From positions 1-22,996 of IMG/VR virus record IMGVR_UViG_3300042560_001008: a stretch of 22,996 nucleotides of DNA; one strand, written 5' to 3'. Within the stretch, counting starts at the first letter, position 1, and every line of letters begins with the position of its first letter. The position numbers and the translations under genes were made by a program. Below are positions 4,312 through 18,960 of this stretch, piece by piece. This DNA is from a virus. The notes beneath the pieces are model-generated. The model made no database searches and was not told the origin of the DNA. It was given only the letters and a program-made list of their open reading frames with translations.

Positions 4312-5063
4312 TCAACCATGCCTTCCATCGAAGACCTCAGAGCGCGCACCGCCCAGTCCGGTAGCCCGTGCTCCACTTCGCTTGCCGCCGTTTGCTCAAA
4401 CGCTGACAGGTAGGGACCAGCAACCATGGCGTCCGTCAGGATGGCATGGATCTCCACAGGATCGGAAACGCCTTTCAACTTCCGCGTCACGTCGTCCGTG
4501 ATGCGTTGCAACCCGTGAGCGGCGTTGATGGCAAGGCCGCGGCATAGGCGTTCAAACTCACTCCGTGGAATGCTGTCGTCCTCGGTGCGGCCCTGGCGAC
4601 GGAGTTGGACCATGGCGTCATTGCGCTGCTTGGCGAGGCTTCCGCGTTGCGATGCCAGCTCAAGGCCAATTTGCACGCCGCCCGTGCGAAAGGCGTCCAT
4701 GGCAAGGCGGTCAACCTGACGGAGCATCTCGTCCAGGTCGTCGATTTCCCCCTTCAGGTCTCGCTTGGGTTTGGGCGCGTCGTCGGCCACCTCTTCCGGC
4801 GCCTCCCAGATTTCCGTCGCCTGCGCATCCATCCACGCGGCTACGCGCCGAGGGTTCACGCGGGAGTTCTCGAAGCCGTCGCCTCCGCGTTCCTTCACCG
4901 CTTTCAACCGTGCCTTTGGAATGCCCATCACGGCGGCAGCCTGAGCCATGGAGCTGCACCACTCGGGCCACCCGTCGCGGTCTGTGTGTCGCATGGGCGG
5001 ATTTTCTGGGGTCGTGTTCAAAGGACGTACGAGCTTCGCCATATGCAGGCTTTGCCCAGCCAA
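4308..5063 (-). CDS. Terminase small subunit candidate (Nu1-like position)
   Basis: The small terminase recognises the packaging site and recruits the large subunit. This protein of about 251 aa overlaps the large terminase start by 4 bases. Its N-terminal part contains a helix-turn-helix-like stretch (SSMAQAAAVMGIPKARLKAV, then VNPRRVAAWMDAQ) like Nu1-type DNA-binding domains. A charged, helical middle (DLDEMLRQVDRLAMDAF, SQRGSLAKQRNDAMVQLRRQ) could mediate oligomerisation. I prefer the TTG at 5063 because GGAAGGA lies 6 bases upstream. ATG at 5042 is the alternative. A start at 5129 would put the TGCA-rich palindrome at 5092-5138 inside the gene. The role is inferred mainly from context. 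Confidence 0.75.
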   Translation of the reverse strand: MAGQSLHMAKLVRPLNTTPENPPMRHTDRDGWPEWCSSMAQAAAVMGIPKARLKAVKERGGDGFENSRVNPRRVAAWMDAQATEIWEAPEEVADDAPKPKRDLKGEIDDLDEMLRQVDRLAMDAFRTGGVQIGLELASQRGSLAKQRNDAMVQLRRQGRTEDDSIPRSEFERLCRGLAINAAHGLQRITDDVTRKLKGVSDPVEIHAILTDAMVAGPYLSAFEQTAASEVEHGLPDWAVRALRSSMEGMVE

Positions 5064-5400: not shown

Positions 5401-5570
5401 TCCAGCTCCTTCATCTTGTCCCTTAGAATTTCCTGTTGCCGCTCGATGTCATCCAACGCCTTCTGCGCTTCGTCTAGCGCGCTCTTCAGCCCATTGCGCG
5501 CTTTCGCTGCGGCATAATACGCCGAGTTCAGCATGCGCATAGCCTTCTCCATCTGCTCGTACTCACTCAT
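5397..5570 (-). CDS. Small coiled-coil protein (57 aa)
   Basis: Not recognised by family. The 57-aa product is almost entirely helical with heptad-like spacing of hydrophobic residues (MEKAMRMLNSAYYAAAKA, then LDEAQKALDDIERQQEI) and ends in a Lys/Glu-rich stretch, so it is probably a small coiled-coil oligomer or an adaptor for another protein. ATG at 5570 is chosen because GGAGG stands 8 bases upstream. The upstream in-frame ATG at 5591 lacks this site and lies deeper inside the neighbouring gene. It overlaps the upstream 117-aa gene by 8 bases and the downstream 76-aa gene by 4 bases. Confidence 0.75.
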   Translation of the reverse strand: MSEYEQMEKAMRMLNSAYYAAAKARNGLKSALDEAQKALDDIERQQEILRDKMKELE

Positions 5571-5916
5571 GGTACATCCCTCCCACGGCAAGATACGCCT
5601 CGCACAACTGGCGAGGAGTTGCGGTAATCATCTGATGGCAGTCGTATTCCTGCGCCATCCATATGTCACCAGAAAGCGGGCAAATCTTGAGCACGTCCAA
5701 CCCGAGGGCGTGAATAAACCTGTTCTCCTTACCCTTCCTAAGAGCCCGCACCAGCGGCATGATGGCGTCGTATGAGTTGCAGTAGTCGGGCAGGCACTCC
5801 CCGCTTTCGTGGTACTGCTTTGGAAGCCTTACACCGTCATCGCTCCACTCGAACACTTTAACGCAACGCCATCCAGCAGCCTCCGCCACCGCCCTGTTGA
5901 TTTCCTCGTCTGTCAT
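5563..5916 (-). CDS. Phage ABA-sandwich-like small protein (117 aa)
   Basis: The N-terminus MTDEEINRAVAEAAGWRCV, followed by an acidic stretch and later LPDYCNSYDAIMPLVRAL, resembles the widespread small phage proteins placed in the ABA-sandwich family. Their role is unknown. The C-terminal part contains ITATPRQLCEAYLAVGG, also common in that group. ATG at 5916 overlaps the stop of the upstream gene by 4 bases and follows AGGGGG at 5 bases, so the earlier ATG at 5940 is unlikely. It is an accessory gene between replication and packaging modules. Confidence is good that it is a gene and moderate for the family; no function is claimed. Confidence 0.8.
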   Translation of the reverse strand: MTDEEINRAVAEAAGWRCVKVFEWSDDGVRLPKQYHESGECLPDYCNSYDAIMPLVRALRKGKENRFIHALGLDVLKICPLSGDIWMAQEYDCHQMITATPRQLCEAYLAVGGMYHE

Positions 5917-6095
5917 TTCGTCCCCCTTCCAGCCTTCCAAGCCTCATATTGCATTTCCCTCAACCACGCGGTGTCTACGTTGCGCGGGATTGCCCATTCA
6001 CGCCACCATTGCAAGAACTCCTGACGCTCTCGCACGGCCTTTTGAACGGCTTCGTTAGCCTTCTCCTCGTTGCTCCATATTGCTGCTTGGCTCAT
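5913..6095 (-). CDS. Small hypothetical protein (60 aa)
   Basis: Not recognised. The 60-aa product is helical and charged, rich in Trp, Glu and Arg (ERQEFLQWWREWAIPRN and MQYEAWKAGRGTK). It starts at ATG 6095, overlapping the helicase stop by 4 bases, and is preceded by AGAGG at 5 bases. It is the first of the four small genes that follow the DnaB-type helicase. Its position suggests expression with the replication genes, but the sequence offers no catalytic or binding motif. Confidence 0.75.
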   Translation of the reverse strand: MSQAAIWSNEEKANEAVQKAVRERQEFLQWWREWAIPRNVDTAWLREMQYEAWKAGRGTK

Positions 6096-7426
6096 TCCGG
6101 CCTCTCTTTCTCAATCGGTGTAAACTCCGTCAGTGATTTGTGAAACATGAAAGGGACATCAATCTGGGACGTTCCGCGCCTGAACTTGGCGACGTGCAAG
6201 TTGACCTCGACCATGTCCGGATCGTCCTCAAACTCAGTTGCCTTGCCCGCCCGGTAGAGCATGCCAACGAAGTCGGCGTCCTGCTCAATCGCCCCAGACT
6301 CTCGCAGGTCTGAAAGCCTCGGCTTGCGGTCCTTGTCCTTCTCGATGTCTCGGCTCAACTGGGCGAGGGCGATGACAGGCAGGGCAAGTTCCTTGGCCAG
6401 CCTCTTGATGCCCCCGCTGATCTCGTCCACCTGCTCCCTGCGTTGAATCTTCGGGTTGCCGCTGACGAGTTGGAGGTAGTCGATAACGAGAAGCTTAATC
6501 CCATGCGACCTGACCCACCTCCTGGCCTTCGCTGCAATTCCCCCGACGCTGATGCTGGAACCCTCGAAGATCACAATCGGCATCTGGCCGAAGGTTGCCG
6601 CCGCCGTTGTCATCCGATGAAACTCTTGAGCGGACGGTTGTCGGCGTTGGTCAAACTGATCCCACGAGAAGCGAGATTCCTGAGCCAGAAACCGGGCGCC
6701 AAGCTCTCGACCGCTCATTTCAAGGCTGATAACCCCAACGGGCACTCCTCGGCCTGCAATCAGGCGCGTCATCGTCATGGCCAATGACGTTTTGCCGGTA
6801 GCTGGTCGGCCTGCGATGACGATCATCTCCCCAGCTCGGAATCCGCCTCTTGTCACCCAATCCAGCATGCGCCACCCAACCGGCAATCCATGTGCACTCC
6901 CTGAAATGCGCTCCTGAACGTCGTCCACGGCTTGCCTAGCTACTTTTCGCGCCGTGGTGTCACTTCGGTCCCCGAACTCGCCCCTGACGCCTAGGATGGC
7001 CGTTTCCGCTTCGGCAATCGCTGTTTCCGTGTCCTCCGGCTTCTCGCGCACGGCTTGGATGATCTCGGTGGCGGCTGTCAGCAGCTTCCGAAGCCGGAAC
7101 TTGTCCCTGACCATCGGGAGGTAGTAGTGCAAATTTTCAGGACTCGGCACGGCGCCCATGATGTCGCTGATGTAGGCGAGCCCTCCAACGCCTTCCAAGC
7201 ATCCCTCGCGCTTCAAGGCTCCTCCAAAGGCAATTAGGTCCATTCCGGTGCCGTTGTCCGCGCAGCGGCAAAGCGTCGTCCAGAGCGTTTGGTGGCGCAG
7301 GTCGTAGAACCAAGCCTCTTCAACGCCAAACTCGCGGGCATCGTCCAGCTTCGAGGGGTCCAGCAATGAGCACCCAAGGACGCCTTGCTCGCCTTCATGG
7401 TCATGGGGTGGCAATCCGTCGATCAT
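6092..7426 (-). CDS. Replicative DNA helicase, DnaB type
   Basis: The hexameric helicase that unwinds DNA at the phage replication fork. In the 444-aa product, the N-terminal primase-interaction domain covers about residues 5-110 (EGEQGVLGCSLLDPSK, MGAVPSPENLHYY). The RecA-like domain has Walker A GRPATGKT at residues 206-213, Walker B-region KLLVIDYLQLV and the DnaB-specific LSDLRESGAIEQDADFV. A C-terminal KFRRGTSQIDVPF-like stretch is also typical. The length is close to bacterial DnaB (about 470 aa). ATG at 7426 overlaps the initiator stop by 4 bases and has AAGG 7 bases upstream; the longer frame up to 7582 lies inside the initiator gene. The protein probably works with the upstream-encoded initiator, as lambda O/P deliver DnaB, but here the helicase is phage-encoded. 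Confidence 0.95.
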   Translation of the reverse strand: MIDGLPPHDHEGEQGVLGCSLLDPSKLDDAREFGVEEAWFYDLRHQTLWTTLCRCADNGTGMDLIAFGGALKREGCLEGVGGLAYISDIMGAVPSPENLHYYLPMVRDKFRLRKLLTAATEIIQAVREKPEDTETAIAEAETAILGVRGEFGDRSDTTARKVARQAVDDVQERISGSAHGLPVGWRMLDWVTRGGFRAGEMIVIAGRPATGKTSLAMTMTRLIAGRGVPVGVISLEMSGRELGARFLAQESRFSWDQFDQRRQPSAQEFHRMTTAAATFGQMPIVIFEGSSISVGGIAAKARRWVRSHGIKLLVIDYLQLVSGNPKIQRREQVDEISGGIKRLAKELALPVIALAQLSRDIEKDKDRKPRLSDLRESGAIEQDADFVGMLYRAGKATEFEDDPDMVEVNLHVAKFRRGTSQIDVPFMFHKSLTEFTPIEKERPE

Positions 7427-17050: not shown

Positions 17051-17268
17051 CGCTCACCTCCGCATTTTTCAGCAGCGATCCGCCTTGCCTCCGCCCTAGC
17101 CTCTTTTGATGTGTTAAATTTTCCGGGAACGCTAACCCACTTGGTGGGCTTCATCACCGTGCGAGCCCCGTATTTTGTCCGGCTGCTGTAGGTGTGAGCC
17201 CGGAGAGTCGACCATGCAGCAACCCAAGTCTCCCCGCTGCGCCAAACCATTGTCGTAATCTTTTTCAT
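17047..17268 (-). CDS. Small basic hypothetical protein (73 aa)
   Basis: Not recognised. The 73-aa product is basic and aromatic (MKKITTMVWRSGETWVAAW, then ARTVMKPTKWVSVPGKFN) with a C-terminal helix (SKEARAEARRIAAEK). It could be a small beta-helix fold that binds nucleic acid, but nothing is diagnostic. ATG at 17268 follows GGAGGG and overlaps the upstream stop by 4 bases. A longer reading up to 17718 has unrelated composition and runs across other small genes. Confidence 0.7.
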   Translation of the reverse strand: MKKITTMVWRSGETWVAAWSTLRAHTYSSRTKYGARTVMKPTKWVSVPGKFNTSKEARAEARRIAAEKCGGER

Positions 17269-17435
17269 CGCCCGCCCTCCGACAGCATCCGAGCGATTCG
17301 GAATTGGTTGGCCGACTCGTGCAGGTCCGAGGCGACCGCGTCCTGGTTGACAGCTCGCAGGGCAATGCGACGCCAGCCGATGCCGCGGAGTGCGGCCTTG
17401 GCGGCTTGGCCGGTGTAGATGGGGATAGGTGTCAT
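17265..17435 (-). CDS. First small gene of the leftward operon (56 aa)
   Basis: A 56-aa ORF starting MTPIPIYTGQAAKAALRG, then WRRIALRAVNQDAVASDL, with no known family. The ATG at 17435 has no SD site. It stands 6 bases after a candidate -10 (CAATAT, 17447-17442), so the mRNA may start at or next to the ATG and be leaderless. A repressor-like operator covers the -35 region (17455-17470). The gene overlaps the downstream 73-aa gene by 4 bases, so it is probably the first gene of that early transcript. Confidence 0.6.
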   Translation of the reverse strand: MTPIPIYTGQAAKAALRGIGWRRIALRAVNQDAVASDLHESANQFRIARMLSEGGR

Positions 17436-17441
17436 GAGGTG

Positions 17442-17470
17442 ATATTGTCGAAGTGTTGACGATTGGCAAC
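17442..17470 (-). promoter_or_regulatory. Candidate leftward early promoter with operator O1
   Basis: O1 is GTTGACGATTGGCAAC at 17455-17470, matching the operator consensus. On the minus strand TTGCCA (17469-17464) serves as a -35 (5 of 6 matches) and CAATAT (17447-17442) as a weak -10, with a 16-base spacer. The operator covers the -35 and most of the spacer, so bound repressor should block polymerase. The start codon of the 56-aa gene follows 6 bases after the -10. Confidence 0.6.
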
Positions 17471-17477
17471 GGGGAAA

Positions 17478-17654
17478 TCAGGCGGCAACGTACGGCAGTC
17501 CACGACCGGCAAAGTTTCCAGTCTTGGCGGCGGAAACCTCGGCAGCGGTGTAGTACATTCCGCAACCTACGCACTGACGGAAACCTGCGGCAATGCGTTC
17601 CAGATTCTTGTTTCCAGCGTGAGCCTTGCCGCATTGCACTTTCGTCTTTTTCAT
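17478..17654 (-). CDS. Small Cys-containing protein (58 aa)
   Basis: A 58-aa product with cysteines in MKKTKVQCGKAH and FRQCVGCGMYY, a CxxC pair and a single upstream Cys/His, suggesting a small zinc site. The rest is Ala/Gly-rich with a basic patch. ATG at 17654 lies 27 bases downstream of a candidate transcription start, with GAAAG as a weak SD. It stands between the regulator gene and the early operon, a position that often holds phage regulators, so a regulatory or anti-host role is possible but unproven. Confidence 0.6.
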   Translation of the reverse strand: MKKTKVQCGKAHAGNKNLERIAAGFRQCVGCGMYYTAAEVSAAKTGNFAGRGLPYVAA

Positions 17655-17689
17655 AGGTGTCTTTCGTTCTGCGTTTCGTTGACGTGCTC

Positions 17690-17719
17690 ACTTTGCTGCA
17701 AGTGTTCCCACTTGGCAAC
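17690..17719 (-). promoter_or_regulatory. Candidate leftward promoter with operator O2
   Basis: O2 reads GTTCCCACTTGGCAAC at 17704-17719, directly beyond the end of the regulator gene. On the minus strand TTGCCA (17718-17713) can be a -35 box and CAAAGT (17695-17690) a weak -10, 17 bases apart. The site would allow the regulator to control the 58-aa gene and genes downstream. Confidence 0.55.
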
Positions 17720-17721
17720 GC

Positions 17722-17928
17722 CTATTTTTCACAAACCACCGCAACCGCTCTCAATGCAACGGCTTCCAGCGCAAAAAGAATTTTGGCAGACGGCGACCGC
17801 TCCCCGTTCAGGATCCGTGAAACGGTGCTTTTCGCGACGCCTGCCCTGCGCGCCACTTCGTTCTGCCCGAGCTTCGTCCGCTTCATCGCCCGCTTGATCG
17901 CGGCAATCCGCTTGTCCAGTTCTGCCAT
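17722..17928 (-). CDS. Cro/CI-type HTH transcriptional regulator (68 aa)
   Basis: A single-domain XRE-family DNA-binding protein expected to repress the surrounding promoters. The HTH is clear: LGQNEVARRAGVAKSTVSRI followed by LNGERSPSAKILFALEAV. At 68 aa it is Cro-sized and has no C-terminal dimerisation or LexA-type cleavage domain. ATG at 17928 has no SD and lies 6 bases after a candidate -10 (17940-17935), so its mRNA may be leaderless. The frame stays open upstream to 18075, but that extension would cross two operators. Operators O2, O3 and O4 flank the gene, indicating autoregulation. It could act as the maintenance repressor or as a Cro-like switch; the window does not decide. Confidence 0.88.
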   Translation of the reverse strand: MAELDKRIAAIKRAMKRTKLGQNEVARRAGVAKSTVSRILNGERSPSAKILFALEAVALRAVAVVCEK

Positions 17929-17934
17929 GCGCGG

Positions 17935-17971
17935 ACGTTGCCACGGGGAAACGCTGTTGACAAGCGGGAAC
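17935..17971 (-). promoter_or_regulatory. Tandem operators O3/O4 and candidate regulator promoter
   Basis: O3 is GTTGCCACGGGGAAAC at 17937-17952 and O4 is GTTGACAAGCGGGAAC at 17956-17971, with centres 19 bp apart. On the minus strand TTGTCA (17963-17958) and CAACGT (17940-17935) with a 17-base spacer form a candidate promoter for the regulator. On the plus strand O4 contains a perfect TTGACA (17957-17962), but the matching -10 position (AACCTC) is poor. Tandem placement suggests cooperative binding or dual control. Confidence 0.6.
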
Positions 17972-18202
17972 AGGGTGGCAACCTCGCGCCGTCCTTCCGC
18001 GCAAAAAGCCGAGCCGTGCCATCGTATCGACCGCCGTGGTGAATCGGCGCTGGGTTGGCTCAAGAAGAACGGCAATCGGCCTCACGGCGCGGCGGGATCG
18101 CTTAACCATGGCGCAATCATAGGACACCGGCAGCCTTATGGCTTGCCGCTTGGTTTTGGCCTTTTTGTCCAGGTAATCAATGGGGCGAACTTTTCAAAAC
18201 TC
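17972..18202 (+). other. Divergent region between regulator and plus-strand genes
   Basis: No confident gene is seen in these 231 bases. It should contain the rightward promoter for the plus-strand pair, but only weak -35/-10 candidates are visible. An 8-codon ORF (18180-18206, encoding MGRTFQNS) with an AGG 6 bases upstream ends in TGA overlapping the ATG of the 137-aa gene. A minus-strand ORF opening near 18127 reads into the regulator in another frame and is not convincing. Confidence 0.35.
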
Positions 18203-18616
18203 ATGAGCAACCAAAGAGACGCCTACCACTGGCTCGGCTGCATCCTCGTCAGCGAGCGCGCGCACCAGAGCGACCCAAAACACAACGTCATCGCGATTGA
18301 TGACGGCACGTTCCAATGCATTTGGGAGGACCAAGGAAACCTTGAGCTACCAGCCGGAGTTGACGCTCGCGTGATCGGATTCGAGCAAGCCCCGTACGAA
18401 AACGGAAGCGTCGATAATCCCGCTAGGGAATGCATGTTCCTAGCCATCGGCCACACGTTCACGGAAGGCTGGCAATGGTACGGGACGACGGTGCCGCACA
18501 TCGATGCGACGGACCTGAAGTTGCGCAACGCGAAGTTTGCCGATGCGATGCGCAGAGCTTACGACATTTCGCTTCCCGAACCGCTGCCGATGATTGGCGT
18601 GGCATCGGAGCATTGA
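18203..18616 (+). CDS. Unrecognised plus-strand protein (137 aa)
   Basis: Not recognised. The 137-aa product has normal soluble composition with mixed alpha/beta character: YHWLGCILVSERAHQSDP, DDGTFQCIWEDQGNLEL, CMFLAIGHTFTEGWQWYGTT and a helical C-terminus (NAKFADAMRRAYDISLPE). The plus-strand direction, opposite to every neighbouring gene, and its place next to the regulator suggest an independent transcript, such as a lysogenic or host-interaction gene. No SD stands before ATG 18203; a short leader ORF overlaps it. The reading extends upstream to 17657 only as antisense of the regulator. Confidence 0.6.
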   Translation: MSNQRDAYHWLGCILVSERAHQSDPKHNVIAIDDGTFQCIWEDQGNLELPAGVDARVIGFEQAPYENGSVDNPARECMFLAIGHTFTEGWQWYGTTVPHIDATDLKLRNAKFADAMRRAYDISLPEPLPMIGVASEH

Positions 18617-18630
18617 ACTGATGGCGTTGC

Positions 18631-18960
18631 GTGACAACCTACTTCGGCCTACCACTCCCGATTGACGCGCCGTCGAGCATTTCCAAACTTGGACGCGTCA
18701 TCCCCGGCGTCTGGCGTTGCGCCAACGGGCTCCGCGCGGAAGTCCGCGATGCCTCCATAATCCACGCCGCGGGCGTGTCCTCACGCTCTATGGAAATGCG
18801 CTGGGACGCGTCCAGCGGCAAACTGATCGACGCCGTGGAAACCGGCTGGGATCTCAAGGTGTGGCTTGGGCATTTGCCACAGGGCAAGCCATCCCCCACG
18901 CCCACGGCTCAACCCTCGCCGGATTGCACGGACGCCCATTCCGTGGGTGCACGCATTTAG
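18631..18960 (+). CDS. Unrecognised plus-strand protein (109 aa)
   Basis: Not recognised. The GTG start at 18631 lies 14 bases after the 137-aa gene. The first 85 residues look protein-like (MTTYFGLPLPIDAPSSI, LRAEVRDASIIHAAGV, KLIDAVETGWDLKVWLG), while the last 25 are Pro/Thr/Ser-rich and overlap the convergent 75-aa minus-strand gene by 107 bases. There is no clear SD. The two plus-strand genes probably form a small operon. Real extent and function are uncertain. Confidence 0.5.
   Translation: MTTYFGLPLPIDAPSSISKLGRVIPGVWRCANGLRAEVRDASIIHAAGVSSRSMEMRWDASSGKLIDAVETGWDLKVWLGHLPQGKPSPTPTAQPSPDCTDAHSVGARI

Follow-up and report, generated by a model that had tools for sequence, protein, structure and literature searches.

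A predicted autorepression circuit of four conserved operators around a small HTH_3 regulator in a group of uncultured phages

In the stretch of viral DNA analyzed here, the 22,996 nucleotides of IMG/VR record IMGVR_UViG_3300042560_001008 (the window), a 68-aa HTH_3 protein probably acts as a solitary Cro-like autorepressor, damping its own promoter, a divergent promoter and two early promoters through four operators. The operators, O1 to O4, and their four promoters span ~520 bp of the window. An earlier note on this DNA had proposed a complete repressor-operator-promoter circuit with a consensus readable from the sequence. Comparison with related phages strongly backs the predicted circuit and the consensus, but it does not make of them a complete lambda-type switch, because neither an S24 CI nor an integrase was found in the five records, each of which has one strong HTH_3 match. 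What can be read from the DNA is the conservation of the sites, the pattern of selection on them, their coincidence with promoters, their co-occurrence with the regulator gene and a leaderless start geometry, from which we infer binding by this protein, repression and its timing.

The regulator gene lies on the minus strand (17722–17928), and its product belongs to the HTH_3/XRE family by its match to Pfam HTH_3 (PF01381; E = 4e-11, 43.2 bits, cut-off 23), its score against Pfam Cro (PF09048) being 17.1 bits, below the cut-off of 32.7. Four homologues that are 82–100% identical are found in IMG/VR, and the contigs identified through them (L005, L006, L007, and L008) form, together with the window, the comparison set of five phages; a search with HTH_3 returned a single strong match in each record. 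A profile scan of 84,980 species genomes detected no cellular relative of the regulator. Its AlphaFold model is of moderate quality (pLDDT 72), and a fold search with this model gave no informative match, while a PDB sequence search returned only a distant DNA-binding chain, DBP48, and one LacI-family protein.

An exact search of the whole record with the 16-bp pseudo-palindrome GTTNMCNNNNGGNAAC gives four matches, at 17455, 17704, 17937, and 17956. These are the sites that the earlier note had picked out by eye, and its impression that the window holds no further copy is borne out; with one mismatch allowed, the only addition is an unrelated site at 2935. The sites, to which no strand is assigned, are placed around the regulator gene as described, two in front and one directly behind. 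O1 (17956–17971) covers the overlapping -35 boxes of two divergent promoters, the leftward P_xre (TTGTCA, 17963–17958) and the rightward P_R (TTGACA, 17957–17962). O2 (17937–17952), which lies 19 bp from O1 start to start, overlaps the P_xre -10 region. O3 (17704–17719) holds the -35 box of P3 (TTGCCA, 17718–17713), and O4 (17455–17470) that of P4 (TTGCCA, 17469–17464). Dinucleotide shuffles of the window contain on average 0.06 matches to the fixed consensus and 0 of 100 attain the observed number, a significance that is optimistic because the consensus was derived from the sites themselves. Clustering measured without a consensus is not significant in the window taken by itself (a cluster of 4, against 3–5 across 60 shuffles); therefore, the window is not decisive and the shuffles are not taken as the main proof.

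The predicted operator set is strongly supported by the comparative data, which, and not the window statistics, are its real support. L005, L006, L007, and L008 each have exactly four motif matches, at positions equivalent to those in the window. With a leave-one-genome-out PWM, the operators of the five phages score 17.3–23.4 bits against at most 14.1 bits for other sequence, the sole exception outside the operators being a duplicated O4 in L008 (17.8 bits). None of the 48 half-site columns varies among the five phages, whereas 5 of the 16 columns in the 4-bp central spacers do (Fisher p = 5.7e-4), so that the operators differ only in their central bases; the regulator-gene interval from O2 to O3 is variable in 86 of 217 columns. 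The sequence of O4 is invariant at 16/16 positions across the five phages. The operators are missing from six related or RNA-sharing records without HTH_3 (G027–G030, G033–G034), so that sites and regulator occur together in 5/5 phages and are both missing in 6/6 other records, although the five phages are kin and counts across them are not fully independent. One of the five contigs, of 38,390 bases, suggests a complete genome because it has 127-bp direct terminal repeats. A search for further relatives with tandem operators returned 20 IMG/VR stretches, but the 16 outside L005–L008 hold one palindrome each and were taken as chance matches; pattern scans for the O3 leader and for O4 found no additional relatives.

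Four promoters of the form TTGNCA-N16–18-CANNNT are predicted in every one of the five phages, in both directions from O1 and at O3 and O4. In the window, P_xre (17935–17963, minus strand; TTGTCA-N17-CAACGT) stands 6 nt from the regulator ATG, with identical geometry in 5/5 genomes, P3 (17690–17718, minus strand; TTGCCA-N17-CAAAGT) has its predicted +1 at 17683, and P4 (17442–17469, minus strand; TTGCCA-N16-CAATAT) again has 6 nt to the ATG. These are the three leftward promoters whose -35 boxes had been noticed earlier; a fourth, the rightward P_R on O1 (17957–17984, plus strand; TTGACA-N16-CAACCT; predicted +1 at 17991), had been overlooked. The -10 box had been given as CAA-N-N-T, which fits the three leftward window promoters, but the relatives keep CA-N-N-N-T (CATTGT or CATCAT at some of their promoters), and at P_R a CANNNT lies at 16–17 bp in 5/5 genomes despite differing -10 letters. 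When 1280 three-base -10 motifs were tested, CA---T was present in 20/20 promoters and the next-best motif in 13/20. The enrichment of CANNNT has a per-genome Fisher p of 1e-5 to 3e-4; each genome has 28–103 TTGNCA hexamers elsewhere, and such a -10 accompanies them only 0–2 times. In all five phages, the distance from -10 to ATG is exactly 6 nt at P_xre and P4, which would make the A of the ATG (17928 and 17435 in the window) the +1 and thus predicts leaderless starts, while at P3 it is 34–37 nt. Because the operator sequence partly implies the -35 hexamer, the independent evidence for these promoters is limited to the -10 box and the start-codon geometry. The spaced hexamers, together with the leaderless starts, provide a promoter model for the host of the phage group.

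Directly behind P4, a 56-aa gene (17265–17435, minus strand), whose homologue lies behind O4 in the relatives, opens the next early operon, in an early region that runs towards annealing-protein and exonuclease genes. Behind O3, each of the five phages has one small gene that is unrelated to those of the others (no mutual BLASTP similarity), in a slot with a conserved leader on one side and O4 on the other. The slot gene of the window, which encodes 58 aa between O3 and O4 (17478–17654, minus strand), has no Pfam or PHROG match. In L008, an inserted gene for a 265-aa protein that falls in no known family (5515–6361) lies between two copies of TGATTTCCCTGTTGCCAATCGTCAA, the duplicated O4, of which the upstream copy is without a -10. 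On the opposite strand, P_R opens a short operon of variable genes that is not conserved as a set. In the window this accessory operon includes a 137-aa gene (18203–18616, plus strand), which matches no known family and has a homologue in L006, and a 109-aa gene (18631–18960, plus strand), also of no known family, with an 82% identical homologue in L005. No anti-CRISPR or anti-defence gene was recognized in the window, and a Tad2-like gene stands behind P_R in one of the five phages. This gene, the first behind P_R in L006 (G002; PF11195, E = 4e-23), has its ATG 4 nt past the predicted +1 and is a candidate anti-Thoeris gene under a predicted divergent promoter. A DUF7448 gene is located further along the same L006 operon, and in L007 a tRNA-like stretch, judged by eye, lies just downstream of P_R (4760–4880).

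A conserved structured RNA-like element (17991–18108, plus strand) starts exactly at the predicted +1 of P_R, a coincidence found in the window and in L005. There is one element per phage, on the minus strand of each relative (L005, 4815–4938; L006, 4420–4546; L007, 4480–4606; L008, 4730–4855), and it is present as well in two records without the regulator and the operators, L100 (9211–9335, plus strand) and the 49.8-kb contig L101 (8414–8538, plus strand). An extra 5' hairpin domain precedes the element in L006–L008, L100, and L101 and is missing in the window and L005. A few pairs covary, and the fold z-scores of single sequences have modest values (-1.0 to -2.2). No Rfam family was found for the element, and a pattern scan of cellular genome contigs found no cellular copy. 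The 109-aa protein (YFGLPLPIDAPSSISKLGRVIPGVW...) is encoded last in the rightward operon of both the window and L005, and a relative of it follows the element in L100 and L101; its gene and the RNA element are a possible RNA-plus-protein cassette.

In the proposed circuit, the HTH_3 protein, as a dimer, would bind the 16-bp palindrome GTTNMC-N4-GKNAAC at the four operators. O1 and O2 would cover the regulator's own promoter, O1 also the divergent P_R, and O3 and O4 would occupy the -35 boxes of P3 and P4, respectively, the two early promoters that come next. Upon infection, host RNA polymerase would fire all four promoters; as the regulator builds up, polymerase would be excluded and all four would be damped, with burst expression of early, accessory, and variable-slot genes as the outcome. 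Repression is proposed as the mechanism from the geometry of the operators on the promoters and is the way in which Aca proteins are reported to work (PMC9410906); O3 and O4, centered near -29, would suit polymerase exclusion over activation.

A regulator that represses its own promoter while activating others, such as P3 and P4, might be imagined from the weak match of the CANNNT boxes to TATAAT. Class II activators, however, bind near -41, whereas O3 and O4 extend from about -36 to -21, over the -35 box, and the same weak -10 serves P_xre and P_R, which makes activation very unlikely. Similarly improbable is that the palindromes are sites for a host factor, or recombination joints for cassette exchange, beside which the regulator stands incidentally. 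Each phage has a different gene between O3 and O4, and the inserted gene of L008 is flanked by a duplicated O4, which favours this reading, but two sites precede the regulator gene and one directly follows it, sites and regulator are present together (5/5) or absent together (6/6), and substitutions spare only the half-sites; joints alone would require neither palindromy nor a promoter.

It is also unlikely that the regulator belongs to a lysis-lysogeny switch in which a CI partner that escaped recognition binds the same operators, even though the tandem arrangement of operators between two divergent, back-to-back promoters is reminiscent of lambda OR and the rightward operon carries uncharacterized genes. 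Tyrosine (PF00589) and serine (PF00239) integrases are missing from all five records, one of which has the terminal repeats, as is the S24 peptidase of S24-type CI proteins (PF00717), for which a control search was positive in 10/14 genomes; each record has its one strong HTH_3 protein, and the regulator is without a relative in the 84,980 species genomes. The idea that the rightward operon might encode a CI-like protein was dropped, as the tested genes are without any HTH match, and these genes are not kept as a set. The phage group is probably virulent. Its nearest named TerL relative (27% identity) is Verrucomicrobia phage P8625, a lytic phage of Verrucomicrobia (PMC4642752), which resembles it in a one-directional genome and a similar module order, but is distant and has no annotated HTH regulator in its record. 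The host is possibly a verrucomicrobium.

A wider version of the autorepressor circuit is put forward tentatively. In a CI-less lineage, one 68-aa repressor might gate a rapid-exchange locus, in which operator-promoter units bracket a slot refilled with unrelated, probably anti-defence genes and the operators double as recombination joints; the same repressor might also gate a structured small RNA from the divergent promoter. For an uncultured phage group without studied regulation, the analysis provides a testable DNA consensus, four mapped predicted promoters, and predicted starts.

Lambda Cro acts at operators that lie in tandem where two promoters diverge and their -35 boxes overlap, and more operators lie at other early promoters. 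The regulator described here is likewise a Cro-sized HTH protein with, at the sequence level, operators at divergent promoters whose -35 boxes overlap. In contrast, no S24 CI and no integrase were found, the regulator is predicted to be leaderless, and O3 and O4, each a single site, are located farther into the early region. Aca autorepressors are small HTH proteins that act on one or two inverted repeats within the core promoter and autorepress early operons in which accessory or anti-defence genes are found (PMC9410906). The small HTH regulator of the window similarly has inverted repeats within the core promoter from which its own operon is transcribed. In L006, the first gene behind P_R resembles Tad2, an anti-Thoeris family. 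Unlike in Aca systems, the regulator gene comes first in its own transcript, and there are four operators and four promoters and no known acr. The circuit would work like Aca or Cro repression. In archaeal rudiviruses, near-identical regulatory sequences precede small unrelated early genes, and Aca8 is the proposed HTH repressor (PMC11065993). The present phages share with them a common regulatory sequence before small unrelated early genes and a proposed HTH repressor, but have a bacterial promoter type and palindromic operators within the promoter. Candidate anti-defence genes could be gathered by position from the operator-bracketed slot, as they have been in the archaeal viruses (PMC11065993). 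The type of circuit is a familiar one; its less usual features are the CI-less setting, the predicted control of four promoters by a single small regulator, the variable slot framed by operators, and the RNA on the divergent side.
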